Shown one piece after another: positions 15,193 through 55,557 of a DNA stretch of 64,000 bases (position 1 is the stretch's first letter; every line of letters starts with the position of its first letter). The notes beneath the pieces were generated by a model, which saw nothing but the letters and a program-made list of their open reading frames with translations, ran no database searches and was not told the origin of the DNA. Made by a program: the position numbers and the translations under genes. Origin of the DNA: Polycyclovorans algicola TG408 (GTDB lineage: Bacteria > Pseudomonadota > Gammaproteobacteria > Nevskiales > Nevskiaceae); assembly GCF_000711245.1 (NCBI RefSeq), contig NZ_JOMH01000001.1, forward strand, positions 2,350,830 through 2,414,829. Direction: 5' to 3'.

Positions 15193-16938
15193 TTAAACAA
15201 GTGCGGCGTCGAGTTCCATCAACTCATCGACGGGGGTTTGCACATTGGCCAGCAGCGCCGGGACCTGGCCAAGCATACGGCTGGCAAAGAAGCGTGCCGT
15301 GGCCAGCTTGCTGGCTTTGAACGCGGCATCTGAATGCGCCTCGGCGGCCTGCGCCATGCGGAGCCAGTTGTAGCCAAGATAGGTCAGGGCAAAGGCACGC
15401 TGATAGTCCACGCAACCGAAAGCGCCGGTGTTGGGGTCGGTCTTAAATGACTGCTGCAACCAGTCGGTGGTGTCGGCCAGGGCATCGACCGCCGCCTTCA
15501 GCGGACCGGTAATGAAATCGTGACCGGAAGCCTCATTCAGCGCGCCGCGCACCCGCTCGATGAATCGCTTCGGCAGACGGCCTCCGTGCATCATCAGCTT
15601 GCGGCGGACGAGGTCCATCGCCTGAACGCCGTTGGTGCCCTCGTAAAGGCAGAGAATCTTCGAGTCGCGGACGATCTGCTCGATGCCGTACTCGCTGATG
15701 TAGCCATGGCCGCCATAGACCTGTATCGCCGTCGAGCCCAGGTCAAACGCCGAATCGGTGCAGAAGGCCTTGACCAGTGGCGTGTTGAGATCAACCCAGT
15801 CCTGCGCTTCCTCGCGCACCGCCGCATCGGGGTGATGGTGGGCAATGTCGACAAACATCGACGTTTCGTAGGCCATCACGCGGGCGCCTTCGGTGGTGGC
15901 TTTCATCTGCAGCAACATGCGCCGCACGTCGGGGTGATGGATGATTTCCGGCTCGCCGTTAAAGGCTTTGCCCTGCTTGCGGTCGCGGGCATAGGCGATG
16001 GCATTCTGGGTGGCCAGCTCGCACTGACCCAGGCCTTGAAAGCCGACCATGATGCGCGCGAGGTTCATCATCACGAACATATTCTGGATGCCGGTGTTGG
16101 GCGCCCCCACCATCCAGCCCTTGGCGCCTTCAAAGTCCAGCACGCAGGTGCACGAGGCGTGAATGCCCATCTTGTGTTCGATGGACGCGCAGCGGAAGGC
16201 GTTGCGCTCACCCAGCGAACCGTCGTCATTGACGAGAAACTTCGGCACCACGAACGTCGACAAGCCCTTGATACCTGCCGGCGCATCGGGCAGGCGGGCC
16301 AGCACGAAGTGAATGATGTTGTCGGCCATGGTGTGCTCGCCGGAGGTGATGAAAATCTTGCCCCCTTCAATGGCGAATGAGCCGTCGTCCTGCGGGATCG
16401 CCTTGGTCTTGATCGACGCCAGGTCAGTGCCGGCGTGCGGCTCGGTGATGCACATGGTGCCTGTCCACTCGCCGGTCCCGAGCTTGGGCAGATAGGTTTG
16501 TTTCTGCTCATCGCTGCCGCTGGCAAGGATGGCCTCAAAGCAGCCGGTGGTCAGGCCGGGATACAACGCGAACGCTACGTTGGCCGAGCACAGCATCTCC
16601 TCAACCACCTTCGAGATGAGATACGGCAGCCCCTGGCCGCCGAACTCCGTTGGGTTAGACAAACCCACCCAGCCGGACTCCCAAAACAGCTTGTAGGCCT
16701 CTTTCATGCCCTCAGGCAGAGTCACCTCACCGTCCTTCCACTGTGCGCCGACGGCATCGCTGGGCTCATTGAGTGGCGCGATCTGCCCCTGAATGAGCTT
16801 GGCGGCCTCGTCGAGCAAGCCTTCGATGAAATCGGGCGTCGCGTCTTTGAACGCATCAATTTTGGTCAGCTGATCGATGTGAAGCACGTCATTGAGGACA
16901 AAGCCCATCTCGCGCAGCGGTGCCGTAAACGTTGCCAT
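15193..16938 (-). CDS. Acyl-CoA dehydrogenase (long-form, 581 aa)
   Basis: 581 residues, longer than the roughly 380-residue classical enzymes because of an extra C-terminal domain (about 470-575). This is typical of the long form found in many proteobacterial fatty-acid and aromatic catabolic genomes. FAD and substrate motifs are visible: MCITEPHAGTDLASIKTKA, GGKIFITSGEH, and QVYGGHGYISEYGIEQIVRD. The LYEGTNGVQAMDLV segment carries the position of the catalytic glutamate. It introduces the alpha-beta double bond into an acyl-CoA. The start at 16938 gives the conserved MATFTAPLREMGFVLNDVL N terminus; an upstream ATG at 17001 would add 21 unconserved residues. Confidence 0.93.
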   Translation of the reverse strand: MATFTAPLREMGFVLNDVLHIDQLTKIDAFKDATPDFIEGLLDEAAKLIQGQIAPLNEPSDAVGAQWKDGEVTLPEGMKEAYKLFWESGWVGLSNPTEFGGQGLPYLISKVVEEMLCSANVAFALYPGLTTGCFEAILASGSDEQKQTYLPKLGTGEWTGTMCITEPHAGTDLASIKTKAIPQDDGSFAIEGGKIFITSGEHTMADNIIHFVLARLPDAPAGIKGLSTFVVPKFLVNDDGSLGERNAFRCASIEHKMGIHASCTCVLDFEGAKGWMVGAPNTGIQNMFVMMNLARIMVGFQGLGQCELATQNAIAYARDRKQGKAFNGEPEIIHHPDVRRMLLQMKATTEGARVMAYETSMFVDIAHHHPDAAVREEAQDWVDLNTPLVKAFCTDSAFDLGSTAIQVYGGHGYISEYGIEQIVRDSKILCLYEGTNGVQAMDLVRRKLMMHGGRLPKRFIERVRGALNEASGHDFITGPLKAAVDALADTTDWLQQSFKTDPNTGAFGCVDYQRAFALTYLGYNWLRMAQAAEAHSDAAFKASKLATARFFASRMLGQVPALLANVQTPVDELMELDAALV

Positions 16939-17071
16939 CGTGGTGGTTCCGAAAGATGAATTTGGGGACGTAAGGCTAGCATTCTGCGGGGTTCCGTTCA
17001 CCGATTGCCGCGGCTTTCAGGCGCCTGAAGCGGTCGATTTGACGCGCCCAGGGACCGACGATAAAGGTCGC

Positions 17072-17100
17072 TTGCCGTCGGGCGCCCCGGCCCGTACAAT
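17072..17100 (+). promoter_or_regulatory. Sigma-70-type promoter of tRNA-Val
   Basis: A -35 box TTGCCG at 17072-17077 and a -10 box TACAAT at 17095-17100 are separated by 17 bp. The predicted transcription start near 17107 is about 12 bp before the mature tRNA 5' end. Confidence 0.7.
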
Positions 17101-17118
17101 CGCGCTCCTTCAAATTGA

Positions 17119-17195
17119 AGGCGCGTAGCTCAGCTGGTTAGAGCACTTCCTTGACATGGAAGGGGTCGTTGGTTCGAGTCCAATCGCGCCTACCA
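17119..17195 (+). tRNA. tRNA-Val (anticodon GAC)
   Basis: A complete 77-nt cloverleaf. The acceptor stem AGGCGCG (17119-17125) pairs with CGCGCCT (17185-17191), followed by discriminator A and an encoded CCA (17193-17195). The D arm begins GCTCAGCTGG. The anticodon stem CTTCC/GGAAG encloses loop TTGACAT, giving anticodon GAC, which reads GUC valine codons. The T arm contains GGTTCGAGTCC. It has its own promoter and terminator. Its 3' part is repeated downstream four more times. Confidence 0.96.
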
Positions 17196-17905
17196 AGCTT
17201 CACAGAACAGCCTCCGAGTCTCGGGGGCTTTTTTGTGTCTCAAGGGCGGCCTCGAACCAACGAATCATTCATGACTCGCACGCCGAGGCGTGCTTGAGGG
17301 TGGTCTGCCCGATGGGCAGACGCCCCGCCTGGTGGGCGTGGTCGAGTCCAATCGCGCCTACCAAGCTTCACAGAACAGCCTCCGAGTCTCGGGGGCTTTT
17401 TTGTGTCTCAAGGGCGGCCTCGAACCAACGAATCATTCATGACTCGCACGCCGAGGCGTGCTTGAGGGTGGTCTGCCCGATGGGCAGACGCCCCGCCTGG
17501 TGGGCGTGGTCGAGTCCAATCGCGCCTACCAAGATTTGCAACTAAGCCTCCGAGACCTGGGGGTTTTTTTGTGCCTCAAGGGTGGCCTCGAACCAACGAT
17601 CATTCATGTCTCGCACGCCGAGGCGTGCTTGAGGGTGGTCTGCCCGATGGGCAGACGCCCCGCCCGGTGGGCGTGGTCGAGTCCAATCGCGCCTACCAAG
17701 ATTTGCAACTAGGCCTCCGAGACCCGGGGGTTTTTTTGTGCCTCAAGGGTGGCCTCGAACCAACGAAGCATTCATGTCTCGCACGCCGAGGCGTGCTCGA
17801 GGGTGGTCTGCCCAGTGGGCAGACGCCCCGCCTGGTGGGCGTGGTCGAGTCCAATCGCGCCTACCAAGCGTCACAGAACAGCCCCCGAGTCTCGGGGACT
17901 TTTTC
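17174..17905. repeat. Tandem array of tRNA-Val 3'-end/terminator units (4 full units plus a fifth partial)
   Basis: The segment tcgagtccaatcgcgcctac recurs at 17174 (inside the tRNA), 17342, 17510, 17677 and 17845, giving unit lengths of 168, 168, 167 and 168 bp. Each copy contains the tRNA T-loop 3' half, acceptor strand and CCA, then a terminator-like hairpin with a T run. Next comes an inverted 13-bp copy of the T arm (ctcgaaccaacga at 17251 in unit 1), a cacgcc/ggcgtg hairpin and a gtctgccc/gggcagac hairpin. Units 1-2 are nearly identical and units 3-4 resemble each other more than they resemble 1-2, which implies stepwise duplication. No complete second tRNA is present. Confidence 0.92.
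17210..17234 (+). terminator. Terminator of tRNA-Val (first of five copies)
   Basis: A GC-rich stem gcctccga/tcgggggc at 17210-17228 (one G-T pair) is followed by six T residues. Similar hairpin-plus-T structures follow each repeated tRNA 3' end, near 17380, 17548, 17716 and 17882. Confidence 0.8.
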
Positions 17906-18000
17906 GAAAGCCGCCAGCGTCTCCGCACGTTTCGGCACTACCCCGTAAAGTTCAGGCCGATGGCTGATCAGGGGGTCAGCCCGAGCGCCATAACCACGCC

Positions 18001-19743
18001 ATGAATCAACAAAGCCTCTCCGCCTTTCTCTGGTCGGTTGCCGACCTCCTGCGTGGCGACTACAAGCAGTCCGACTACGGCAAGGTGATTCTGCCGTTCA
18101 CCGTGCTGCGCCGCCTCGACTGCGTGCTGGAGCCCACCAAAGACGCGGTGATTGCCGAGTACGACGACAAATTCAACGCCGGGCTCAACCCCGAACCGTT
18201 CGTGCGGCGCAAGGCCGGGCACAGCTTCTTCAACACCTCGCGGCTGGACATGAAGAAGCTCATGGGCGACCAGGACCACATTCGAGAAAACCTGTTTGCC
18301 TACATTCAGGGTTTCTCCACCGACGTGCGGGATGTGTTCGAGCGGTTTGAATTCCACACCCAGATCGAGCGCCTCGCCAAGTCCGGGCTGCTATACCGCG
18401 TGACCGAAAAGTTTGCCGGCATCGATCTGCACCCCGACAAGGTCGATAACCACCAGATGGGCTTGGTGTTTGAAGAGCTCATCCGCAAGTTCGCTGAAAT
18501 CTCCAACGAGACCGCCGGCGAGCACTTCACCCCGCGCGAAGTCATCCGCCTCATGGTCAACCTCATCTTTGTTGAAGATGACGACGTGCTCTCGCGCCCC
18601 GGCGTGGTTCGCACCCTCTATGACCCAACAGCGGGCACCGGCGGCATGCTCAGCATCGCCGGCGAATACCTGGCCGAGCACAACCCAGACGCCCGCCTCA
18701 CCGTGCACGGGCAAGAGCTCAACCCCGAGTCCTACGCCATCTGCAAGGCCGACATGCTCATCAAGGGGCAAGACGTTTCCAACATCGCCTTCGGCAACAC
18801 CCTGAGCGAAGACGGCCACCCCAACGAGCAGTTCGACTACATGCTCTCCAACCCGCCGTTCGGCGTCGAATGGAAGAAGGTCGAAAAGGAAGTCCGCAAA
18901 GAACACGCGCAGGATGGCTTCAACGGCCGCTTCGGCCCCGGCCTGCCGCGCGTCAGCGACGGCTCCATGCTGTTTCTGCTGCACCTCATCGCCAAGATGC
19001 GTACGGCCAAGGATGGTGGTAGCCGCTTCGGTATCGTGCTCAACGGCTCGCCGCTGTTCACCGGCGGCGCGGGCAGTGGTGAAAGCGAGATCCGCCGCTA
19101 CGTGATCGAGAACGATCTGTTGGAAGCCATCGTTGGCATGCCGACGGACATGTTCTACAACACCGGCATCAGCACCTACCTGTGGATCGTCAGCAACCGC
19201 AAGCCCGCCGCCCGCAAGGGCAAGGTGCAGCTCATCGACGCCAGCGGCTTCTGGCAGAAGATGCGCAAGAGCCTGGGCAGCAAACGCAAGGAACTCAGCG
19301 ACGCGCACATCGAGCGCATCACCCGGCTATTTGGCGAATTTGTGGAATGGAAGGATGACGATAAACCCATCTGCCGCATCTTCAACAACGAAGACTTTGG
19401 CTACCGCACCATCACCGTGGAGCGCCCCCTGCGTGACGAGCAGGGCAACATCGTCCTCGGCCAAAAGGGCAAGCAGAAAGGCAAGCCGCAGCCCGACAGC
19501 AGCCTGCGCGACACCGAGAACGTGCCGCTCAGCGAAGACGTGAACGCTTACTTCAAGCGCGAAGTGCTGCCCCACGCCCCGGACGCCTGGATCGACCCTG
19601 ACAAAACCAAGGTAGGTTACGAGATTCCCTTCAACCGGCACTTCTACGTCTTCAAGCCGCCGCGCCCGCTGGACGTGATTGACGCCGAACTCAAGCAGAC
19701 CACCGACCGCATTCTGGAGATGATTAAGGGGCTGACGGCGTGA
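18001..19743 (+). CDS. hsdM: Type I restriction-modification system, DNA methyltransferase subunit
   Basis: 580 residues. An N-terminal helical domain ([33 protein letters not shown]) precedes the catalytic domain. SAM-binding motif I is DPTAGTGG at 208-215 and catalytic motif IV is NPPFG at 284-288, which is the N6-adenine methyltransferase signature. [14 protein letters not shown] at 173 is also typical of HsdM. With HsdS it methylates adenines at the recognition site; with HsdR it forms the restriction complex. It is the first gene of the island, just after the tRNA-derived repeats. HsdS follows only after about 1.5 kb of inserted genes. Confidence 0.95.
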
Positions 19744-19828
19744 GGCACCGGCTCGCTCCGTATGTGCAAAATTTGCACATTCCTCCCCGACGCCCCAGCG
19801 CGCCGCCGAATCAGAGGTGCTCGGCCCC

Positions 19829-20061
19829 ATGAGCGAGATCCAGATCTACGACACCGGCGAAGTAGAACTAGAGGTCCGCTACCAGTCTGAGACCCTCTGG
19901 CTCACGCTGGGCCAGATCGCCGATCTCTTCGGTGTACAGAAGCCCGGCGTCTCCAAACACCTCCGCAACATTTTCAGCAGCGGTGAGCTCAGCCTCGAGG
20001 CAACCGTTTCCAAAATGGAAACGGTTCAATCCGAGGGCGGGCGCGGGATCACTGCTTCACG
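19829..20061 (+). pseudogene. RhuM-family DNA-binding protein, N-terminal remnant
   Basis: The first 70 or so codons from the ATG at 19829 read MSEIQIYDTGEVELEVRY, then TLWLTLGQIADLFGVQKPGVSKHLRNIF and SLEATVSKMETVQSEGGR. This is the N-terminal domain of the RhuM family, often seen within type I restriction loci. Just after QSEGGR the family match ends and the frame continues to 20380 with unrelated sequence (NGQGSDGV, NNTRHASPRKRTRAG), so the gene is cut short. Intact RhuM proteins are several-fold longer. The family's molecular function is unclear; the HTH-like segment suggests DNA binding. Confidence 0.75.
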
Positions 20062-20273
20062 CGACCTCATTGCCCAGACGGGGCGCAGGCCATCCAGTCA
20101 ATCGACGCCTCAATGTTTTCAGGTGTCCCCGTTCGCTGGGCGCGATCCAGATCGCACCAAAACAGCCCACCGTCCTCGCTCTAAAAATGGCCAAGGGTCT
20201 GACGGCGTGACAGAGCTTCCGGATTTTCTTTTTATATTTTTCAATGAATTGCGCTTGAAAGCGCGCTCAGATC

Positions 20274-20301
20274 TTGGATTGTGTTTAGACATCTTTACAA
20301 T
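20274..20301 (+). promoter_or_regulatory. Candidate promoter upstream of the Abi gene
   Basis: TTGGAT at 20274-20279 and TACAAT at 20296-20301 are spaced by 16 bp in a short AT-rich stretch (20220-20310). The predicted start near 20308 is directly before a terminator hairpin. Confidence 0.5.
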
Positions 20302-20314
20302 ATCGCGTAACAAC

Positions 20315-20359
20315 ACCCGCCACGCCTCTCCACGGAAGCGCACCAGGGCGGGTTTTTTT
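20315..20359 (+). terminator. Intrinsic terminator in the leader of the Abi gene
   Basis: ACCCGCC (20315-20321) pairs with GGCGGGT (20347-20353) around a 25-nt loop and runs into seven T residues (20353-20359). It ends 17 bp before the Abi start codon. It may be an attenuator for the Abi/hsdS transcript or the end of a short upstream RNA. The stretch 20062-20314 otherwise holds only decayed coding sequence. Confidence 0.65.
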
Positions 20360-20376
20360 ATGCCCGTCGTTCGCGC

Positions 20377-21285
20377 ATGAAATTCAACAAGCCAGCGCTC
20401 ACCATCGAGCAACAGGTCGCCCAGCTCATTCGGCGGGGTATGACAGTGTCCGACATCGAGGCGGCCCGACACCACCTGTGCCACATCAATTACTACCGAC
20501 TGCGTGCGTATTGGCTTCCTGACGAGCAGCCTGCAGCCACGCCCGGAGACCACGCTTTCAAGCCTGGCACCCGATTCGAGACCATCCTCGATTTATACGG
20601 CTTTGATCGGAAGCTCCGGTTGCTCGTCATGGATGCCATTGAGCGGGTCGAGGTTTCGCTGCGTACCCGCTGGGCCTACGAGCTCGCCAATCGCTACGGC
20701 CCCAGCGCACACGAAGACGTGGCGCTGTTCCGGGATGCTGACAAGCACGAACGCTGTCTCAACAACATCAGGGCAGAGCTGGGCCGCAGCCGAGAAACCT
20801 TTGTCCAACATTACCGGCAAACCTACAGCGACCCGGCGATGCCGCCGCTGTGGGTGGTCTGCGAGGTCATGTCGTTCGGGCAGCTATCGGAGTGGTACCA
20901 AAATCTTTCGGACAGCAAGGATCGCAAGAGCATTGCCCAGACCTACGGCGTGGATGAGCAAATTCTCGAGTCGGTCTGTCATCACTTGACCTACGTCCGA
21001 AACGTATGTGCTCACCACAGTCGGCTATGGAATCGTGAGATGACCATCAGCATGAAGCTGCCGCGAAATCCGGATTGGTTGGGCGCCTGCTTCAATGCTG
21101 CAGTGCCCAAAAGGCTCTACAACACCCTGGTGATGTTGACTTACCTGCTTGATGTCATCAGCCCTGAGTCCCGATGGAGGGCCAACCTGCTCGCACTTCT
21201 GGGCCAGCATCCCAAAATCAACCTTATCGCAATGGGCTTTCCCGAGGACTGGCGGGTATCGGCGATCTGGGAGCAGCGGCCATGA
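20377..21285 (+). CDS. Abi-family (AbiD/AbiF-like) HEPN abortive-infection protein
   Basis: 302 residues matching the Abi_2 family. The N-terminal region has LTIEQQVAQLIRRGM and HINYYRLRAYWLP. The middle has DLYGFDRKLRLLVMDAIERVEVSLRTRWAY. The C-terminal half holds YVRNVCAHHSRLWNR, where R208-x4-H213 is the HEPN ribonuclease motif RxxxxH. Family members block phage growth by stopping the infected cell, probably through RNA cleavage. The gene sits between hsdM and hsdS, and its stop overlaps the hsdS start by 4 bp, so it is translated with the restriction system. Activity against RNA is inferred from the motif. Confidence 0.9.
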   Translation: MKFNKPALTIEQQVAQLIRRGMTVSDIEAARHHLCHINYYRLRAYWLPDEQPAATPGDHAFKPGTRFETILDLYGFDRKLRLLVMDAIERVEVSLRTRWAYELANRYGPSAHEDVALFRDADKHERCLNNIRAELGRSRETFVQHYRQTYSDPAMPPLWVVCEVMSFGQLSEWYQNLSDSKDRKSIAQTYGVDEQILESVCHHLTYVRNVCAHHSRLWNREMTISMKLPRNPDWLGACFNAAVPKRLYNTLVMLTYLLDVISPESRWRANLLALLGQHPKINLIAMGFPEDWRVSAIWEQRP

Positions 21286-22586
21286 GCTTTTCGCGATATC
21301 CCGAGTACAAGGACAGCGGGGTGGAGTGGTTGGGGGAGGTGCCGGGGCATTGGGCCGTCACGCCATTCAAGCGTCTTCTCGAATTTCAGAATGGCTCCGA
21401 TCACAAGAACGTTGAAGTCGATCACGGCTATCCGGTCTATGGTTCCGGTGGTGTTTTCGCATACGCGTCTGAGTATCTCCATGACGGTGAGTCGGTCCTG
21501 CTGGGCAGGAAGGGAACCATCGATCGGCCACTGCATGTCACCGGCAAGTTTTGGACTGTGGACACGATGTACTGGACGCGCATCCGAGCAACTGCGTCGG
21601 GTAGGTTTTGCTACTACGCGGCGACCACTGTTCCGTTTGATTACTACTCAACCAACACTGCTCTTCCGAGCATGACTCAAAGTGCGCTGGGTGCTCACTG
21701 GGTCGCTTGTCCGCTGAAGGCCGAACAAACCGCCATCGCCGCCTTCCTCGACCGCGAGACCGGCAAGATCGACGCGCTGGTGGCGGAGCAGGAAAAGCTG
21801 ATCGCGCTGCTCAAGGAAAAGCGACAGGCCGTCATCTCCCATGCTGTCACCAAGGGCCTCAACCCCGATGCCCCGATGAAGCCCTCCGGCATCGAGTGGC
21901 TGGGCGATGTGCCGGCGCATTGGACTGTGATGCCAATCCGTCTCGCGGCAAAGCTCGAATCGGGCCACACCCCAAGTCGGAACCACCCTGAATATTGGGA
22001 GAACTGTGAGGTTCCCTGGTTCACGCTGGCTGACGTATGGCAGATCAGGGAACAGGGGGTCGAGTATGTCTACGACACGAAGGAGAAAGTGAGCGAGCTG
22101 GGGCTGGCGAACTCCTCGGCACGGCTGCTTCCCAAAGGAACTGTCATCCTTTCCCGGACTGCGTCTGTTGGATTTTCCGCGGTGATGGGCGTCGATATGG
22201 CGACCACACAGGATTTCGCAAACTGGATTTGCGGACCAACGCTATTGCCTGACTACTTACTGTTTGTGTTTCGTTCTATGAGCGGAGAGTTCCGTCGACT
22301 GATGATGGGCTCAACACACAACACCATTTACATGCCCGATATCCAAGCGTTTCGGTTTGTATTGCCGCCGGTCGATGAGCAGCAGGCAGTGGTGCTGCAT
22401 GTGCGAGCGATGGCGAGGCAGTTCGACGATTTAATTAATCAGGCTGAGGAGGCAACCACCCTCCTCAAAGAACGCCGCAGCGCCCTGATCTCCGCTGCGG
22501 TCACCGGCCAGATCGACGTGCGTGGCCTACTGTCGCAAACGCCGGTTGCAGCGGGCGTGGACCCCTGTGCTGTAATTGCGGAATGA
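21282..22586 (+). CDS. hsdS: Type I restriction-modification system, specificity subunit
   Basis: 434 residues with the two-repeat architecture of HsdS. Two target-recognition domains each begin after a similar phrase (DSGVEWLGEVPGHWAVTPF near residue 11; PSGIEWLGDVPAHWTVMPI near residue 198). Each ends in a conserved helical spacer (AAFLDRETGKIDALVAEQEKL near 150; the C-terminal DDLINQAEEATTLLKERRSAL). The domains read the two halves of a split DNA target. The start at 21282 overlaps the Abi stop by 4 bp (ATGA), and the stop overlaps the next gene by 4 bp. Target sequence cannot be predicted from this. Confidence 0.94.
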   Translation: MSFSRYPEYKDSGVEWLGEVPGHWAVTPFKRLLEFQNGSDHKNVEVDHGYPVYGSGGVFAYASEYLHDGESVLLGRKGTIDRPLHVTGKFWTVDTMYWTRIRATASGRFCYYAATTVPFDYYSTNTALPSMTQSALGAHWVACPLKAEQTAIAAFLDRETGKIDALVAEQEKLIALLKEKRQAVISHAVTKGLNPDAPMKPSGIEWLGDVPAHWTVMPIRLAAKLESGHTPSRNHPEYWENCEVPWFTLADVWQIREQGVEYVYDTKEKVSELGLANSSARLLPKGTVILSRTASVGFSAVMGVDMATTQDFANWICGPTLLPDYLLFVFRSMSGEFRRLMMGSTHNTIYMPDIQAFRFVLPPVDEQQAVVLHVRAMARQFDDLINQAEEATTLLKERRSALISAAVTGQIDVRGLLSQTPVAAGVDPCAVIAE

Positions 22587-23731
22587 GCCAGCGCGTCGCC
22601 GTTAGTCCGGAACTCCTGCGCTGGGCGCGTGAACGCGCTCGGCTGGACCCGATTGAGCTGACGGCGCGGTTTCCCAAGCTGCCGGCTTGGGAGGCACATG
22701 CGCTGCAACCCACGCTGCGCCAGCTTGAAGATTACGCGCGCGCCACACATGCGCCGATTGGATTCTTTTTCTTGACTGAGCCGCCATTGGAGCCGCTGCC
22801 CATCCCGGATTTCCGCACCATGGCAGGGCGCGCGGTGACCCGGCCCAGCCCCAACTTGTTGGACATGATTTATGTCTGCCAGGAGCGGCAGGACTGGTAT
22901 CGCGACTTCGTTACCGTGGGTGGATATTCGCCGCTGGACTTCATCGGGTCTTGCACCACACAGACGCCTCCCGAAGTGGCGGCTGCGGCCATGCGCCGTC
23001 GCCTTGGTTTCGACCTTGAAGCGCGGCGCCAGTGCGCCACCTGGGAAGAGGCGCTGCGGCGCTTCATTGAGCAAGCCGACCAGATCGGCGTGCTGGTGAT
23101 GGTCAGCGGCGTGGTAATGAACAACAACACCCGCAAGCTGGACCCTGAAGAGTTTCGCGGCTTCGCGCTGGCAGACCCGATGGCGCCACTGGTGTTCATC
23201 AACGGCGCAGACAGCAAGTCGGCACAGATGTTTACGTTGGCCCATGAACTGGCGCATCTGTGGCTGGGGGCCTCGGCCTTGTCCGACGTGAGTGTGAGCG
23301 GTAACACGGACAACCTCACCGAACGCTGGTGTAACCAAGTGGCAGCAGAACTGCTGGTGCCGTTGTCGGCCTTGCACGCCACGCTCACTGCCGATGAGGC
23401 CCTGGACGCGACACTCAGAAGGCTGATCCGTGAGTTCAAGGTCAGCTCGTTGGTGGTGTTGCGCCGACTGCTGGATGCCCATTATCTAAGCCGCAGTCAG
23501 TTCAATCAGGCGTACGCAGGCGAGCTGGCGCGGCTTGCTGCGGTGTCGCGCAGCTCGGGTGGGGACTTCTATGCCACGACGCGTTCGCGCATCAGTCGCC
23601 GTTTTGGTCGTGCGCTGGTGGAAAGCACACTGGAGGGCCGCACGCTGTATCGCGACGCGTTCCGCATGCTCGGCATTGCCAAAACGGAAACCTTCAACGA
23701 GTTCGGTCGAAGCTTGGGCTTCCCGAGCTGA
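22583..23731 (+). CDS. ImmA/IrrE-type metallopeptidase with XRE-like N terminus
   Basis: 382 residues. The first 60 (SPELLRWARERARLDPIELTARFPKLPAWE, then PTLRQLEDYARATHAPIGFFF) resemble the XRE/COG2856 fused helix-turn-helix. The C-terminal half has the zinc protease motif HELAH at 221-225. Relatives cleave phage or mobile-element repressors (ImmA) or radiation-response regulators (IrrE). It overlaps hsdS by 4 bp and abuts the PIN-like gene with a 1-bp overlap. That pairing suggests a toxin-antitoxin-like module carried in the hsd operon; this is inference from gene order and family precedent. Confidence 0.88.
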   Translation: MSQRVAVSPELLRWARERARLDPIELTARFPKLPAWEAHALQPTLRQLEDYARATHAPIGFFFLTEPPLEPLPIPDFRTMAGRAVTRPSPNLLDMIYVCQERQDWYRDFVTVGGYSPLDFIGSCTTQTPPEVAAAAMRRRLGFDLEARRQCATWEEALRRFIEQADQIGVLVMVSGVVMNNNTRKLDPEEFRGFALADPMAPLVFINGADSKSAQMFTLAHELAHLWLGASALSDVSVSGNTDNLTERWCNQVAAELLVPLSALHATLTADEALDATLRRLIREFKVSSLVVLRRLLDAHYLSRSQFNQAYAGELARLAAVSRSSGGDFYATTRSRISRRFGRALVESTLEGRTLYRDAFRMLGIAKTETFNEFGRSLGFPS

Positions 23732-24225
23732 TGGCCTATTTACTCGATGCCAATGTCTTCATCCAGGCCAAGAATTTCCACTACGGCTTTGACTTCTGCC
23801 CGGCGTTTTGGGACTGGCTGGTTCGCGGCAACAAGGCAGGTCGGGTATTCAGCATCGAGAAGGTGCGCATTGAGCTGCAAGCCGGCACCGACGAACTTGC
23901 TGAATGGGCCGACGCTTGCGGAGCCACATTCTTTATGGCGCCCGACAGTGCCGTTCTTCCGGCGCTGCCACGCGTTAGCCAGTGGGCAGGTACGCAAAAT
24001 TTCACGCCAGCCGCCGCCAATACATTTTTGAATGTTGCGGATTATTGGTTGGTCGCACAGGCCTTGGCCCAAGGGCACACGGTGGTGACGCATGAAAAGC
24101 CATCCGACGGACTGCGGCAAATCAAGATTCCCAATGCGTGTATCGGACTGAACGTGCCCTACATGACGCTATTCGAGATGCTGCGGCGAGAACGTGCAAG
24201 GTTTGTGCTGGGCTCGGCGCCATGA
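23731..24225 (+). CDS. DUF4411 (PIN-like) protein
   Basis: 164 residues beginning MAYLLDANVFIQAKN. D6 in LLDAN, E48 in RIELQAG, and D104 in NVADYWLVAQALA lie where PIN-domain nucleases place their metal-binding acids. DUF4411 proteins are predicted PIN-like ribonucleases often found next to ImmA/IrrE proteins. It shares one base with the preceding stop and overlaps hsdR by 4 bp, so the pair is embedded in the restriction operon. A toxin role is likely but unproven. Confidence 0.85.
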   Translation: MAYLLDANVFIQAKNFHYGFDFCPAFWDWLVRGNKAGRVFSIEKVRIELQAGTDELAEWADACGATFFMAPDSAVLPALPRVSQWAGTQNFTPAAANTFLNVADYWLVAQALAQGHTVVTHEKPSDGLRQIKIPNACIGLNVPYMTLFEMLRRERARFVLGSAP

Positions 24226-27200
24226 GCCTGCACAAAGAAATCGCCTTTGAAGACGACGTGTGCCATCACCTGGCCGCCAACGGCTGGCATTACGCGGCGG
24301 GCGATGCGGCGGGCTACGACCGCGTGCGGGCGCTGTTCCCGGCGGACGTTTTGGCTTGGGTGCAAACCTCCCAGCCGCAGGCCTGGGAAGTGCTGAGCAA
24401 GAACCACGGTGCGGCCGCCGAGGCCACGCTGCTGGAGCGTATTCGCAAGCAGATGGATGACCGCGGCACCTTGGATGTGCTGCGCCACGGGGTGGAGCTG
24501 CTGGGCCTGCGCCAGCCCTTGATGCTCGCGCAGTTCAAGCCGGCGCTGGCGATGAATGCCGACATCGTGGCCCGCTATCAGGCCAACCGCCTGCGGGTGG
24601 TGCGGCAGGTGCGCTATTCGCTGCACAACGAAAACTCGATTGATCTGGTGCTGTTTTTGAACGGCATCGCCGTGGCCACGGCGGAGCTGAAAACCAACTT
24701 CACCCAGAGCATTGATGACTCGGTAGACCAGTACCGCTTTGACCGCCACCCGCGCCCCAAGGGGCAAGCGGCCGCCGAGCCACTGCTCGACTTTCCACGT
24801 GGCGCGCTGGTGCACTTTGCGGTGAGCACCAGCGAAGTGAAGATGACCACCAAGCTGGCCGGGCCCGCGACATTCTTCCTGCCCTTCAACCTGGGTGATG
24901 AGGGTGCAGCAGGCAACCCGGTGAACCCCGATGGCTACCGCACCGCCTACCTGTGGGAAAAGGTGTGGGCGCGGGAAGGCTGGCTGGAAATCATCGGCCG
25001 CTATCTGGTGGCGCCGCGGGATGAGAAGAAGAAGATCAAGACGGTGATCTTTCCCCGCTATCACCAGTTGGATGTCACCCGCGAACTGATGGCAGCCATT
25101 CGCCGAGAAGGACCGGGGCAGAAGTATCTGGTGCAGCACTCGGCGGGGTCGGGCAAGACCAATTCCATCGCCTGGGCCGCGCACTTTCTGGCCGACCTGC
25201 ACGACGACGCCCACAAAAAGCTGTTCGACACCGTGTTGGTGGTGAGCGACCGCAACGTGCTGGACTCCCAGTTGCAGGAAGCCATCTTCGACTTTCAGCG
25301 CACCACCGGCGTGGTGGCGACGATCAAGAACGAGGCGGGCGCCAAGAGCGCACAACTGGCCGAGGCGCTGTCGGGCAACAAGAAGATTGTGGTGTGCACC
25401 ATCCAGACCTTTCCGCACGCGCTGGCGGCGGTGCAGGAGCTGGCCGCAACTCAAGGCAAGCGCTTCGCGGTGATTGCCGACGAAGCCCACAGCAGCCAGA
25501 CCGGCGAGGCCGCGTCCAAGCTCAAACAGTTGCTGTCGGCCGAAGAACTGAAGGATCTGGCCGACGGCGGCGAGATCAGCACCGAGGACCTGCTGGCGGT
25601 GCAGATGGCGGCGCGGGCGCGCGATGCGGGGATCACTTACATCGCCTTCACCGCCACCCCCAAGGCCAAGACGCTGGAGCTGTTCGGGCGCTTGCCCAAG
25701 CCCGACCAACCCGCCGGGCCGGATAACCTGCCGGCACCGTTTCATGTGTATTCCATGCGCCAGGCCATCGAGGAGGGCTTCATCCTCGACGTGCTGCGCA
25801 ACTACACGCCGTACAGCCTGGCCTTCAAGCTGGCCGCCGACGGCAAGGAGTGGGACGAAACCGAGGTGGAGCGCAACGAGGCGATGAAAGGCCTGATGCG
25901 CTGGGTGCGCCTGCACCCCTACAACGTCAGCCAGAAAGTGCAGATTGTCGTGGAGCACTTTCGCGAGAACGTCGCGGGTCTGCTCAGTGGCAAGGCCAAG
26001 GCCATGGTGGTGGTCGGTAGCCGTCTGGAAGCGGTGCGCTGGCAGTTGGCCATCGAGCGTTACATCAAGCGGCAGGGCTACAGCATGGGCACGCTGGTGG
26101 CGTTCTCCGGCGAGGTGAACGACAAGGAGTCGGGCCCCGATGCCTTCACCGAGACCAGCCCGGCACTGAACCCCCGGCTGCAGGGGCGCGACATCCGCGA
26201 AGCCTTTGCAGGCGAGGACTTCCAGATTTTGCTGGTGGCCAACAAATTCCAGACCGGCTTTGACCAGCCGCTGCTCTGCGGCATGTACGTAGACAAGCGG
26301 CTGGCGGGCATACAGGCCGTGCAAACGCTGTCGAGACTGAACCGGGCGCATCCCGGCAAAGACACCACCTACATCCTCGACTTCGTGAATGATCCGGCCG
26401 AGGTGCTGGCCGCGTTCAAGACTTACCACGCCACGGCGGAGCTGGACGGCATCACCGACCCCAACCTGGTGTTCGACCTGCGTGCCAAGCTCGATGCCAG
26501 CGGCCACTACGACGACTTCGAGGTCGAGCGCGTGGTGAAGGCGGTGCTCAACCCCAGCGGCACGCAGAAAGAAATGAACGCCGCCATCGAGCCGGTGGCA
26601 GATCGCTTGCTCAAGCAGTACCGCACGGCCAAGCAGATGCTGGTGGCAGCTCAGTCAAAAAAGGACGCGACGGCCGAGCAGGAGGCACAGAACCAACTCA
26701 ACGCGCTGACCCTGTTCAAGCGCGACCTTGGCACCTTTGTGCGCGTCTACGCCTTCCTCTCGCAGATCTTCGATTACGGCAACACCGCCATCGAGAAGCG
26801 GGCGATCTTCTACAAGCGGCTGGTGTCGCTGCTCGACTACGGCCGCGAGCGGGCCGAGGTGGACCTGAGCAAGGTCGTGCTCACCCACCACAAGTTGCGC
26901 GAGCAAAATACTGCCGACCTGAGCCTGTACGGCGGCGATCCGAGCAAACTCAAACCCTTGACCGAAACGGGTGCGGGCGAGGTGCGCGAGCCCGAGAAGG
27001 TCTACATGGCCGAGATCATCGAGAAGCTCAACGACCTGTTCGAAGGCGAGCTGAGCGATGACGACCAACTGGTCTACGTGAATAACGTGCTCAAGGGGAA
27101 GTTGCTCGAATCAGAAACGCTGGTGACCCAGGCCGGTAACAACAGCAAGGAGCAGTTCTCCAACTCGCCTGACCTCAACCACGAGTTCACCAACGCCATC

Positions 27201-27356
27201 ATGGACGCGCTTTCGGCACACACCGTGATGAGCAAGCAGGCGCTGGCGTCCGATAAGGTCCGCGCCGGGCTGCTGGACATTCTGCTGGGGCCGGGGCAGT
27301 TGTATGAGGCGCTGCGGGCCAGAGCGGAGGGCGATTCCGGGGCAGTGGGTCGTTAG
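24222..27356 (+). CDS. hsdR: Type I restriction enzyme, motor/endonuclease subunit
   Basis: 1044 residues. The N-terminal nuclease motif is D141 with E155-L156-K157 (D..ExK). The helicase begins near residue 300 with Walker A SAGSGKT (307-313), followed by the DEAH box in VIADEAHSSQTG and TYIAFTATPKAKTLELF. RecA2 motifs include VVVGSRLEAVRW and ANKFQTGFDQPLLCGMYVDKRL, then QTLSRLNR. A long helical C terminus docks to HsdM/HsdS. The start at 24222 (ATGA overlap with the DUF4411 gene) is preferred over an upstream ATG at 24138. All type I subunits appear intact, so the system is probably active. Confidence 0.95.
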   Translation: MSLHKEIAFEDDVCHHLAANGWHYAAGDAAGYDRVRALFPADVLAWVQTSQPQAWEVLSKNHGAAAEATLLERIRKQMDDRGTLDVLRHGVELLGLRQPLMLAQFKPALAMNADIVARYQANRLRVVRQVRYSLHNENSIDLVLFLNGIAVATAELKTNFTQSIDDSVDQYRFDRHPRPKGQAAAEPLLDFPRGALVHFAVSTSEVKMTTKLAGPATFFLPFNLGDEGAAGNPVNPDGYRTAYLWEKVWAREGWLEIIGRYLVAPRDEKKKIKTVIFPRYHQLDVTRELMAAIRREGPGQKYLVQHSAGSGKTNSIAWAAHFLADLHDDAHKKLFDTVLVVSDRNVLDSQLQEAIFDFQRTTGVVATIKNEAGAKSAQLAEALSGNKKIVVCTIQTFPHALAAVQELAATQGKRFAVIADEAHSSQTGEAASKLKQLLSAEELKDLADGGEISTEDLLAVQMAARARDAGITYIAFTATPKAKTLELFGRLPKPDQPAGPDNLPAPFHVYSMRQAIEEGFILDVLRNYTPYSLAFKLAADGKEWDETEVERNEAMKGLMRWVRLHPYNVSQKVQIVVEHFRENVAGLLSGKAKAMVVVGSRLEAVRWQLAIERYIKRQGYSMGTLVAFSGEVNDKESGPDAFTETSPALNPRLQGRDIREAFAGEDFQILLVANKFQTGFDQPLLCGMYVDKRLAGIQAVQTLSRLNRAHPGKDTTYILDFVNDPAEVLAAFKTYHATAELDGITDPNLVFDLRAKLDASGHYDDFEVERVVKAVLNPSGTQKEMNAAIEPVADRLLKQYRTAKQMLVAAQSKKDATAEQEAQNQLNALTLFKRDLGTFVRVYAFLSQIFDYGNTAIEKRAIFYKRLVSLLDYGRERAEVDLSKVVLTHHKLREQNTADLSLYGGDPSKLKPLTETGAGEVREPEKVYMAEIIEKLNDLFEGELSDDDQLVYVNNVLKGKLLESETLVTQAGNNSKEQFSNSPDLNHEFTNAIMDALSAHTVMSKQALASDKVRAGLLDILLGPGQLYEALRARAEGDSGAVGR

Positions 27357-51989: not shown

Positions 51990-51993
51990 TCTA

Positions 51994-53170
51994 GTGTCCT
52001 TTAACAAAAGTTCACTTTATTATTGATTCGATCAGAGAGGCGGGCGATAGCCGAGATGATTTCATCGGCGGATTTGCGCCATACGAAGGGTTTGGGGTCC
52101 TGGTTGTAGGTTTTGAGGTAGTGGCGGATGGATCGCTCAAGGTCGTTGGTACTGGTGTGGGCGTTACGTTTGATCCACCGCTGTGACAACAGCGAGAAAA
52201 AGCGTTCTACCAGATTGAGCCAGGAAGCTGAGGTCGGGGTGAAGTGCAGGTGATAGCGCGGTCTGGCGGCAAACCAAGCGCGGACCGCTTCGGTTTTGTG
52301 CGTGCCGTAATTGTCGAGAATGAGATGAATATCGAGGTGCTTGGGCACCTCACGATCCAGTGCGCGCAGGAACGCCAGGAACTCCGCACTGCGATGCCGC
52401 CGGTGCAAGCGACCAATGACTTCGCCGGTGGCGATATCCAGCGCTGCGAACAAGGTCGTCGTGCCGTGTCGCACATAGTCGTGGGTCGTGGTTTCGGCAG
52501 ACCCGAAACGCAACGGCAAGCCAGGTTGGGTACGGTTCAGGGCTTGAATCTGGCTTTTTTCATCAACGCACAACACCAAGGCACGATCTGGCGGATTCAG
52601 ATACAGACCGACGATGTCGTGCACTTTGTCAACAAAGTGCGGATCGGTCGACAACTTGAAGGTTTCCAGCCGGTGCGGCTTGAGCCCAAAGGCGCGCCAG
52701 ATGCGGCTGACTGCCATGGCATTGAGGGCAGTCTCTTCGGCCATCAAAGTCGTCGACCAGTGCGTCGCCTTGGCTGGACCGCTATGCAAAGTCTTCTCAA
52801 TGACTTCCGACACTTTGTCGTCGTTAATCGTGCGCGGTCGACCCGTGCGCGGCGCATCGCTCAATCCCGCGATCCGGTACTGCTCAAAACGCCGCCGCCA
52901 CTTCGACACGGTTTGCGTCGTCACCCCGCAGCGCTGTCCCACTTCGCGGCCCGACAATCCAAGGCTGCACCCCAGAATGATCTGCGCACGCTGCTTGTCC
53001 GCCGACGGCGTCTTGCGACGACGAGCCCACTGCTCCAACTCCGATTGCTCGGTGGGTGTCAGCTCCAGCCCAATGGGTTTGCGTCCCGTCATCTCCGCAT
53101 CCTCCCTCAAGTCAGGGAAGATGGACAACGGTCACTCATAATCGTTCTATGAACTTTTGTTAAAGGACAC
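51994..53170 (-). mobile_element. IS630-family insertion sequence, copy A
   Basis: 1177 bp bounded by inverted repeats GTGTCCTTTAACAAAAGTTC and GAACTTTTGTTAAAGGACAC, flanked by the dinucleotide TA (51992-51993 and 53171-53172), the target duplication typical of the family. It carries one transposase gene. It matches copy B at 54365-55541 in length, and the one difference I noticed is at about 52790 (Gly versus Arg codon). Confidence 0.95.
52001..53128 (-). CDS. IS630-family transposase, copy A
   Basis: 375 residues from a TTG start at 53128 (an ATG lies 12 codons later). The N-terminal helix-turn-helix is [26 protein letters not shown]. The DDE acids are in [22 protein letters not shown] and [13 protein letters not shown]. 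The stop TAA lies inside the right inverted repeat as the gene reads, so the reading frame ends within the terminus of the element. It appears intact and should be able to cut and paste the element at TA sites. Confidence 0.93.
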
Positions 53171-53173
53171 TAG

Positions 53174-54361
53174 GGATCATCTGCAAAACCCCTCCTCATG
53201 GGACAATTCACGTCTCGTCGATGACCTGTTGAGCGCCTGAATCTGATGAAGCAGTTGAGCCTTGCGTCTGGGTTTGAAGTGTCCTCTAAACGCACGCGCA
53301 AGCGGGTGTTTCTTGAAGAGATGGACCAGGTGGTGCCCTGGCGCGAGCTGGTAGCGCTGATTGAGCCCCACTACTGGGGTAAAGCCTCGACGGGTCGCCC
53401 ACCGTTTCCCTGCGAGCTGATGCTGCGAATTCACTTCCTGCAACAGTGGTTCGGGCACTCCGATCCCGCCATGGAAGAATCCCTTCACGATGTGCCGCTG
53501 TATCGCGAGTTCATTGGTATTGATCCCGGAGCCGATCGTCTACCCGACGAGAGCACCATCCTGCGCTTCCGGCATTTGCTCGAACAGCACAAGCTGGCCC
53601 CCGCCATGCTGCAACTGATCAATGAACTGCTGCGCACACGGGGGCTGATGCTCAAAGCCGGTACCGCCATTGACGCCACCCTGATCCACGCCCCCAGTTC
53701 GACCAAGAACAGCAGCGGCGAGCGCGATCCGGAAATGCACCAAACGAAGAAAGGGAATCAGTGGTTCTTTGGTATGAAAGCCCACATCGGTGTGGATGCT
53801 GACTCCGGGCTGGTGCACGCCGTTGCGGGTACTGCTGCCAACGTCCATGACCTGACGCCGGTCGACGAGCTGCTGCATGGAGATGAAGAGCATGTGCACA
53901 CCGACGCGGGCTACCAGGGCATCGACAAGCGCGAAGAACTCAAGCACCACACCGTTGAGTGGCAGGTCGCGATGCGCCCCGGCAAGCGCCGGGCATTGCC
54001 CGACACACCGATGGGCAAACTGATCAGCGAAATTGAAAAAACCAAGGCGCGCATTCGCGCCAAGGTCGAACATCCTTTCCGGGTGATCAAGCGCCAGTTT
54101 GGCTACACCAAGGTTCGCTACCGGGGATTGGCCAAGAACACTGCCCAATTGCAAACCCTGTTTGCCCTTTCCAACCTGTGGATGGTGAGGCGACGACTGA
54201 TGGTTGCGGGATAGGTGCGCCTGATGAGCGCCAAAACCGAGGTTATGCAGCGATTCGAAGCCAAAACGGGCAATGCGAAGCCTCGAATCTCGATCCTCCG
54301 GTACGACTTTCGTCACCGCACGCTTGGCAGCCCGTCTCAGCATGGGTTTTTCAGATGATCC
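53174..54361 (+). mobile_element. IS5-family insertion sequence
   Basis: 1188 bp. Terminal inverted repeats start GGATCATCTG (53174) and end CAGATGATCC (54361) with further similarity inward (aaaaccc...ccatg). It is flanked by CTAG on both sides (53170-53173 and 54362-54365), the 4-bp target duplication expected for the IS5 group. The CTAG belongs to the joint between two IS630 copies (C of one end, TA, G of the next). Confidence 0.92.
53246..54214 (+). CDS. IS5-family transposase
   Basis: 322 residues. An N-terminal DUF772-type domain (PHYWGKASTGRPPFPCELMLRIHFLQQWFG, DESTILRFRHLLE) precedes the DDE_Tnp_1 catalytic domain. The acids are D in GTAIDATLIHAP, D in HVHTDAGYQGID and E in RAKVEHPFRVIKRQFGYTKVRYRGL. 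It looks complete. Confidence 0.94.
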   Translation: MKQLSLASGFEVSSKRTRKRVFLEEMDQVVPWRELVALIEPHYWGKASTGRPPFPCELMLRIHFLQQWFGHSDPAMEESLHDVPLYREFIGIDPGADRLPDESTILRFRHLLEQHKLAPAMLQLINELLRTRGLMLKAGTAIDATLIHAPSSTKNSSGERDPEMHQTKKGNQWFFGMKAHIGVDADSGLVHAVAGTAANVHDLTPVDELLHGDEEHVHTDAGYQGIDKREELKHHTVEWQVAMRPGKRRALPDTPMGKLISEIEKTKARIRAKVEHPFRVIKRQFGYTKVRYRGLAKNTAQLQTLFALSNLWMVRRRLMVAG

Positions 54362-54364
54362 CTA

Positions 54365-55541
54365 GTGTCCTTTAACAAAAGTTCACTTTATTATTGATTC
54401 GATCAGAGAGGCGGGCGATAGCCGAGATGATTTCATCGGCGGATTTGCGCCATACGAAGGGTTTGGGGTCCTGGTTGTAGGTTTTGAGGTAGTGGCGGAT
54501 GGATCGCTCAAGGTCGTTGGTACTGGTGTGGGCGTTACGTTTGATCCACCGCTGTGACAACAGCGAGAAAAAGCGTTCTACCAGATTGAGCCAGGAAGCT
54601 GAGGTCGGGGTGAAGTGCAGGTGATAGCGCGGTCTGGCGGCAAACCAAGCGCGGACCGCTTCGGTTTTGTGCGTGCCGTAATTGTCGAGAATGAGATGAA
54701 TATCGAGGTGCTTGGGCACCTCACGATCCAGTGCGCGCAGGAACGCCAGGAACTCCGCACTGCGATGCCGCCGGTGCAAGCGACCAATGACTTCGCCGGT
54801 GGCGATATCCAGCGCTGCGAACAAGGTCGTCGTGCCGTGTCGCACATAGTCGTGGGTCGTGGTTTCGGCAGACCCGAAACGCAACGGCAAGCCAGGTTGG
54901 GTACGGTTCAGGGCTTGAATCTGGCTTTTTTCATCAACGCACAACACCAAGGCACGATCTGGCGGATTCAGATACAGACCGACGATGTCGTGCACTTTGT
55001 CAACAAAGTGCGGATCGGTCGACAACTTGAAGGTTTCCAGCCGGTGCGGCTTGAGCCCAAAGGCGCGCCAGATGCGGCTGACTGCCATGGCATTGAGGGC
55101 AGTCTCTTCGGCCATCAAAGTCGTCGACCAGTGCGTCGCCTTGGCTGGACGGCTATGCAAAGTCTTCTCAATGACTTCCGACACTTTGTCGTCGTTAATC
55201 GTGCGCGGTCGACCCGTGCGCGGCGCATCGCTCAATCCCGCGATCCGGTACTGCTCAAAACGCCGCCGCCACTTCGACACGGTTTGCGTCGTCACCCCGC
55301 AGCGCTGTCCCACTTCGCGGCCCGACAATCCAAGGCTGCACCCCAGAATGATCTGCGCACGCTGCTTGTCCGCCGACGGCGTCTTGCGACGACGAGCCCA
55401 CTGCTCCAACTCCGATTGCTCGGTGGGTGTCAGCTCCAGCCCAATGGGTTTGCGTCCCGTCATCTCCGCATCCTCCCTCAAGTCAGGGAAGATGGACAAC
55501 GGTCACTCATAATCGTTCTATGAACTTTTGTTAAAGGACAC
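54365..55541 (-). mobile_element. IS630-family insertion sequence, copy B
   Basis: 1177 bp, same orientation and same ends as copy A, with TA at 54363-54364 and 55542-55543. The outer flanks of the two copies (51976-51993 and 55542-55557) together form one interrupted hairpin. The two IS630 copies therefore arrived as, or became, a tandem pair at one TA target. Confidence 0.95.
54372..55499 (-). CDS. IS630-family transposase, copy B
   Basis: 375 residues, identical to copy A except [10 protein letters not shown] in place of [10 protein letters not shown]. It has the same TTG start (55499), HTH and DDE residues. Arg is more likely than Gly to be ancestral only if other genomic copies show it; the window alone cannot tell. 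Confidence 0.93.
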
Positions 55542-55543
55542 TA

Positions 55544-55557
55544 GGTTGGCAGCGGCG
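55544..55557. other. Right half of the hairpin split by the IS nest
   Basis: ggttggcagcggcg, perfect complement of 51976-51989. On the minus strand the rebuilt hairpin would be followed by TTTT, so it may have been a weak terminator or a regulatory stem between the AraC gene and the P450. Confidence 0.75.

Follow-up and report, generated by a model that had tools for sequence, protein, structure and literature searches.

What is the array that follows the only tRNA gene in this DNA, and how did it arise? In the window, which is the whole 64-kb stretch of DNA that was analysed, ARAGORN called a single tRNA, tRNA-Val(GAC) at 17119–17195. The original prediction placed five copies of the tRNA 3′ end behind it, each with CCA and its own terminator. 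It proposed that these are leftover attachment sites, a reservoir of such sites or a transcribed array. We compared the array with the rest of its genome, with relatives and with the repeats known from E. coli.

The array behind tRNA-Val(GAC)

The features of the locus are as follows.

17119–17195, + strand: intact tRNA-Val(GAC) (ARAGORN; RF00005, 67.5 bits)
17196–17363, + strand: unit 1, 168 bp, with trailer/terminator, antisense T-arm, hairpins and tail copy
17364–17531, + strand: unit 2, 168 bp, same sequence as unit 1 (unit alignment)
17532–17698, + strand: unit 3, 167 bp (unit alignment)
17699–17866, + strand: unit 4, 168 bp (unit alignment)
17867–17904, + strand: partial fifth unit, trailer and terminator only
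17209–17229, + strand: terminator-like hairpin directly 3′ of the tRNA
17377, 17544, 17711 and 17883, + strand: start positions of the other terminator-like hairpins
17248–17262, + strand: antisense T-arm copy GGCCTCGAACCAACG, differing at one position from the tRNA reverse complement
17416–17430, 17584–17598 and 17751–17765, + strand: identical antisense T-arms of units 2–4
17277–17338, + strand: class B hairpin insert of unit 1, with counterparts in units 2–4
17277–17293, 17302–17321 and 17326–17338, + strand: hairpins of the unit 1 insert, with counterparts in genome G001
17342–17363, + strand: tail copy 1, from T-loop position 55 to CCA (exact-match search)
17510–17531, 17677–17698 and 17845–17866, + strand: tail copies 2–4, exact
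18001–19743, + strand: hsdM, which opens the adjacent type I RM set; outside the array

Tandem Repeats Finder reported the repeat at 17174–17904, with a period of 168, 4.4 copies and 92% matches. The 22-nt tail (TCGAGTCCAATCGCGCCTACCA) occurs exactly five times in the window (starts at 17174, 17342, 17510, 17677 and 17845). No extra match was found in the 64 kb when three mismatches were allowed, and 100 shuffles gave none. The array is confirmed as real, with the predicted spacing of 167–168 bp. The predicted count has to be lowered, because the first tail is that of the tRNA itself and only four copies follow. The tail is exact through CCA in all four complete units, as predicted. Five terminator-like hairpins lie within 17000–18100 (1.1 expected), one after each tail, which agrees with the claim that every copy has its own terminator.

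Units 3 and 4 match unit 1 in 154 and 152 of 170 aligned columns, respectively. The differing columns lie mostly in the trailer (13 of 16 for unit 3, 13 of 18 for unit 4). Within the window, every unit has the same tail, the same 15-nt antisense arm and the same stems in its first and second insert hairpins, and the loops vary. An assembly artefact is unlikely, because the genome is one 3.65-Mb contig and the units differ, units 3 and 4 being about 10% off unit 1. Homologous arrays were also found in a second assembly, that of G001, a genome of the same genus. Apart from the repetitiveness nothing speaks for an artefact, and we consider its chance negligible. The Val unit was not found elsewhere in the single-contig genome of 3,653,213 bp.

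On the tRNA strand, each unit runs from the trailer with its terminator through the antisense T-arm and the hairpin set to TCGAGTCC..CCA. The antisense arm reads GGCCTCGAACCAACG in the window and GGACTCGAACCAACG in G001. The arm of the window has one mismatch in 13 scored positions, a better match than any of 32 other T-arms gives. The T5′ strand has no recognisable sense copy in the window (5 of 11 positions mismatched), and its counterpart in the G001 fold is a short degenerate pairing strand. The antisense arm and the insert, which the original prediction had missed, make these repeats units rather than bare tails.

The closing helix in the G001 fold is formed by the antisense arm and the tail. 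In the minimum-energy fold of window unit 1, the tail pairs with the last insert strand instead of the antisense arm. The idea that every unit holds a minihelix with a proper acceptor stem was rejected: such a minihelix was seen by eye in some units and is not general. Unit 1 of the window, with its terminator included, is more stably folded than all 200 of its shuffled versions (z −5.29). This favours a reading in which the tRNA and the units share a transcript from which the units are released as structured CCA-ended RNAs, the T-arm helices and tails being under selection for folding and processing. Against it, a terminator-like hairpin stands after every tail of the window, and the only promoter-like site found lies upstream of tRNA-Val. 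The proposed transcription of the array is thus plausible for the family, where an RNA named rttR is annotated in E. coli, and doubtful in the window. On balance, we think it rather unlikely that such RNAs explain the arrays.

Defence genes and possible attachment sites

The array lies at the edge of a defence island, as predicted, and the set from HsdM to HsdR follows it at 18001–27356. The set contains HsdM, a PDC-S05-type protein (PADLOC), Abi_2/AbiD, HsdS, an M78/IrrE-type peptidase (RmrA-like), DUF4411 and HsdR. The genes between HsdM and HsdR (19817–27356) form a layered defence set. Rfam reported an abiF RNA at 20316–20353 (38.1 bits, cut-off 37), directly before the Abi_2/AbiD gene at 20377–21285. 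The product of this gene is a predicted AbiF-type protein with its own small RNA, within the type I RM set. Farther along the window, a DDE transposase gene (53246–54214) is flanked by a direct repeat of about 1.18 kb (51991–53174 and 54362–55545), in which 1152 of 1153 compared bases are equal.

Integrase attachment sites in tRNA genes usually have a core that spans the T-loop to the 3′ end. The tails of the window cover the same tRNA segment. They could therefore be the cores (T-loop to CCA) of tRNA-targeting integrases, and the units could be what remained between them. Consistently, an exact tail copy stands 8.4 kb behind tRNA-Val in G013, the kind of trace expected from an island. Homologous RM sets were also found at different tails. 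In G002, the set (HsdM 83% identical to that of the window) lies between tRNA-Val and a decayed unit, whereas the set of the window lies downstream of the array. This result suggests that cargo settled at different tails, and the tails may serve as entry points for cargo. The proposed reservoir of attachment targets gains some support from it.

Unlike integrase attachment sites, the tails of the window enclose a conserved structured filling and form tandem units, and no integrase was found among the 41 window ORFs scanned with Pfam. Attachment remnants leave the conserved internal structure and the antisense T-arm unexplained. No tail copy was found beyond the defence genes in the window, or elsewhere in the genome at up to two mismatches. 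The original prediction had tied its attachment-site readings to mobile DNA at this tRNA. In G001, a Val array of the same type is followed by a sigma-54 gene (identified in a 4-kb stretch), which counts against these readings; the arrays of this genome adjoin the sigma-54 gene and an amidohydrolase-family gene. The array is probably not a series of leftover attachment sites, and we regard integrase cores as a distinctly improbable origin of the tails.

Units behind other tRNAs and in other genomes

The anatomy of the window recurs over tRNAs and genera, with tails that belong to the neighbouring tRNA and often with its T-arm. G001 has 2.4 units at tRNA-Val and 1.9 units at tRNA-Asn, each with its own tail and with related inserts. 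One stem is changed on both sides between the Val and Asn inserts (GCACGCC/GGCGTGC versus GCCCGCC/GGCGGGC). A tail copy was present within 260 bp of tRNA-Val in 11 of 30 loci, window included; these loci were the 30 that best matched a query containing the array. Between G016 and G005, which are of the same genus, a unit is present in one and absent in the other, with the boundary exactly at CCA. Such present/absent pairs, this one included, can equally be explained by deletion between tails.

A model trained on 11 units (R1) had matches in 33 of 85 genomes and in 17 of 21 genera of the window's order, training genomes counted in. We infer that this order lies around Nevskiales. At 45 of the 78 R1 loci, a tRNA is followed by a copy of its own tail (counted by hand; some loci overlap), and 22 of the 78 had no tRNA call in the stretch. 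R1 was trained on tRNA-side copies, as was the model R2 described below, so both are biased toward finding such copies.

For the window's order, 59 units were listed and 58 kept. They include 49 first units and belong to 14 isoacceptors (Val, Asn, three Arg, Gly, Met, Phe, two Ser, Lys, Glu, Thr and Pro). Nearly all of them are 139–197 bp long. Compared with the 22-nt tail of their own tRNA, 36 of the 58 units have no mismatch, 13 have one, 4 have two, 1 has three and 4 have four; this rule under-counts units with 19-nt tails that carry the reversed element described below. Among the 49 first units, a sense V-loop/T5′ copy of the own tRNA was found in 27 (at most 2 of 11 mismatches) and an antisense arm in 32 (at most 3 of 13). 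The own T-arm was strictly the best of about 30 in only 22 of the 49 for the antisense arm and in only 20 for the sense copy.

These data bear on two other readings. One is plain tandem duplication of the 3′ end and trailer of a tRNA, followed by divergence and without any element. Tandem repeats that contain short direct repeats are prone to expand, and the identity of units 1 and 2 would fit. It is disfavoured by the recurrent insert: two tRNAs of G001 bear related inserts, and the same anatomy recurs behind 14 isoacceptors. We consider plain duplication very improbable. The spread over 14 isoacceptors also speaks against the attachment-site reading.

The locus removed from the unit list (L151, G081:C472:4000-6800) has 22 tRNA calls in 2.8 kb together with two unit-model matches, and is possibly a phage or plasmid tRNA array. 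In a scan of contigs, an upstream tail copy was found at 10 loci (12 matches) among the matches listed (80 of at least 119), and the other 70 of the 80 listed loci look like chance. Six of the ten contigs with a tail copy are named Nevskia, Nevskiales, Solimonas, Algiphilus or Salinisphaerales; the remaining four are an Acidovorax MAG, a Verrucomicrobia isolate, Endozoicomonas and an FCPU426 MAG. The locus L235, in a MAG labelled candidate division FCPU426, has a tail copy with one mismatch behind tRNA-Met and was left out of the counts.

The palindromic element E, E. coli rtT and the origin of the arrays

The insert of most units is a palindromic element of about 75 nt (65–88 nt in 30 aligned copies), which we call E. 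It was present in 48 of the 58 units (R2, the model of E, E-value ≤ 0.01; assigned by hand), 30 of which were in the training set. The ten units without E are six distinct class B units, from the window genome (G000) and G001, and L011, L013, L014 and L173. E has the layout GTTG-YTCGGCCCATCCATGGGCC-..-CCCTTCGGGC-..-CAAATTCGTTCCGGACGAATTTG-TCGA. In most units it lies between the T5′ copy (..GGTT) and TCGANTCC, a position that corresponds to the T-loop of a tRNA 3′ half. It is reversed (GGTTCGA[E]AATCC) at, for example, Arg, Glu and Ser tRNAs. When E was removed from a locus with a tRNA array, ARAGORN called tRNA-Thr(GGT); a tRNA was restored in this way at one of four loci tested. One E thus lies inside an otherwise recognisable tRNA gene.

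The hairpins of E are conserved. In 136 distinct copies, 96.4% of the helix cells were paired, versus 66.6% in shuffled and 27–44% in slid controls, and the two modelled helices had 551 double changes versus 136 after shuffling; the alignment had been fitted to the structure under test. TCC is kept in both hairpin loops (127 and 118 of 136 copies; 0.29 and 0.25 in shuffled loops). The conserved helices and loops are a second point for RNAs cut out of the arrays. Against them, copies of E stand in either orientation and also at a distance from tRNAs.

At an E-value of 0.001 or below, R2 matched at least 120 of 274 genomes and at least 100 of 222 genera in a class sample, and at least 80 of 349 in an overlapping phylum sample; these are lower bounds, with 13–17 candidates scored per genome. 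When the best E locus per genome was fetched (n = 30), a tRNA lay within about 400 bp in 20 (hand count), and a tail copy with at most four mismatches was found in 13, exact in 5. Other copies of E lie in intergenic DNA or, as judged by eye, in open frames. Four complete genomes carry 12, 12, 23 and 66 copies of E, and only 5 of the 30 loci fetched from them lay within 400 bp of a tRNA, which indicates that E is not tied to tRNAs. E is a dispersed repeat with a foothold at tRNAs.

Some loci are unusual in their copies of E. L413 (G219:C1:1266500-1284500) is a cluster of twelve in about 15.5 kb, in mixed orientation. L418 (G103:C1:662000-664000) has tRNA-Met followed by five, among the longest tRNA-side arrays seen, and tRNA-Lys of G003 has about five. 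In L382, L388 and L393 (G208 and G219), E seems by eye to lie inside similar open frames, which adjoin a reading frame resembling the end of a serine recombinase.

REP and other RAYT-borne repeats are short dispersed palindromic elements. E resembles REP in being a dispersed palindrome that also occurs outside tRNAs, and differs from it in its length of about 75 nt, its three to four hairpins and the lack of a visible link to RAYT (Y1_Tnp). The Y1 transposase was absent from G001, G003 and G014 (three of eight genomes), and G003 has 28 copies of E. No E was found at 22 Y1_Tnp loci at an E-value of 0.1 or below. RAYT is therefore not supported as the mover of E. A role as CsrA/RsmA decoy, suggested by GGA in the reverse-strand loops, was set aside as E occurs in both orientations. 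Rickettsia palindromic elements are repeats that can be part of a gene without breaking its reading frame. The E copies in open frames of G208 and G219 are likened to them by description, and the host group of the Rickettsia elements differs from that of E.

The window shares only the architecture with the E-bearing units. R2 had no match at the array, its best match in the window (E-value 0.85) lying elsewhere. The window genome has three copies of E (E-value < 0.01), none of which is the array insert; one stands behind tRNA-Arg(ACG), with a tail copy that has one mismatch. The class B insert was found in 2 of 146 genomes, namely the window genome and G001. No RF00391 (RtT) match was found up to an E-value of 5 in 16900–18100, and none at the cut-off across the window. 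The array is of rtT type by anatomy; by sequence it is neither RF00391 nor E. Plasmid and phage collections gave no match to the array. In viral contigs, 15 stretches had the arm motif and were by eye coding or unrelated, without tRNA tails; none had the E motif.

The E. coli counterparts are the tyrTV repeats (rtT/RttR RNA and tpr, Rfam RF00391), in which three 178-bp units with a 19-nt tail stand directly behind tyrV. Each unit contains the antisense arm GGATGAGAAGCTTCG, the T5′ copy AAGGTTCGA and an insert that stands ahead of AATCC. The window and E. coli share tandem copies of the tail of the adjoining tRNA behind that tRNA, an antisense T-arm in each unit and a hairpin insert. The window differs in the tRNA, in the tail (22 versus 19 nt), in having a terminator in each unit, in the class B insert and in the lack of an RF00391 match. 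R2 found the E. coli insert, reversed, in all three units (17.4–18.9 bits, E-value about 1e-4 in 1.2 kb); it gave no match at an E-value of 0.001 or below when searched with 94 other loci in 232 kb. The first 12 nt of the E. coli insert (ATTACTCAGCGC) are those of the E behind tRNA-Arg in G226 (L363). Judged by this weak match, the rtT insert looks like a reversed, decayed copy of E.

Besides tRNA and sub-threshold unrelated families, Rfam gave only RtT matches (in E. coli and once below the cut-off). RF00391 had four matches in E. coli, the control (132.9–137.5 bits), and scored 40.5 bits, below its cut-off of 45, at tRNA-Ser with a reversed E in G273 (L361). In the same locus, the stretch of tRNA-Ser plus trailer (1314–1487) scored 45 bits with sX4 of Rfam, against a cut-off of 70, and sX4 may partly be a tRNA-side unit. 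The annotated rttR, an ncRNA, starts at the 8th nt after tyrV and ends with the CCA of the first tail, which favours excised RNAs. So does the scarcity of terminators ahead of the hairpins: a simple rule, which overlooks some, found one in only 12 of the 49 first units, so that many units could be read through. To our knowledge, the E. coli tyrT repeats have so far been regarded as a peculiarity confined to one tRNA operon. A literature search, with most subscription papers outside its reach, found no paper on rtT repeats. The word rttR occurs once in one E. coli paper (PMC9501238).

With moderate confidence, we favour hairpin insertion in a spare tRNA 3′ half, followed by recombination between tails, as the origin of this rtT-type array. 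Each unit would be an additional copy of the adjacent tRNA from its T-arm to CCA, with a T-loop that is opened by the hairpin insert. The antisense T-arm on the left of the unit would let the strand fold into a closing helix with the tail, usually a second T-arm helix, and the insert hairpins. The hairpin element would have entered the T-loop of a duplicated 3′ half beside the intact gene, perhaps there because the site is harmless. The number of units could then grow or shrink by recombination or slippage between the 22-bp tails, and the front of the array would always retain the intact tRNA, the trailer and, here, the terminator. Insertion as the mechanism, recombination as the amplifier and the same history for the class B insert are inferred.

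The antisense arm is the weak point of the insertion mechanism. With forward E the arm is, by eye, often GGANTC-TC-ACC, and with reversed E it is often NNAT-GAGA-NCC; class B and some other units have a plain antisense arm. With TC or GAGA in the arm, the dinucleotide facing the insertion stays unpaired, as if the structure were maintained for RNA or for single-strand DNA. The same variants, often TCTC with forward E and in several reversed cases GAGA in place of TCGA, keep two helices apart by eye and are a further point for a functional RNA.

A wider form of the insertion reading is tentative, and we hold it to be somewhat less probable than even. E would be an element found across Pseudomonadota that moves by means of its two TCC-loop hairpins and prefers tRNA T-loops. 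Tail arrays, E. coli rtT included, would be safe landing places where a spare tail accompanies each insertion and the tRNA thereby stays intact, and the class B array of the window would be the same with another insert.

In conclusion, an anatomy known from one E. coli gene looks like a widespread kind of element, present behind many tRNAs in many bacteria. Since the units resemble attachment sites, tRNA fragments and pseudo-tRNAs, they matter for annotation. The recurrence of one anatomy across tRNAs and genera makes a testable class, which may be a mobile element that targets T-loops, a tRNA-borne RNA or both, and it offers comparisons of filled with empty sites and of one element at different tRNAs.
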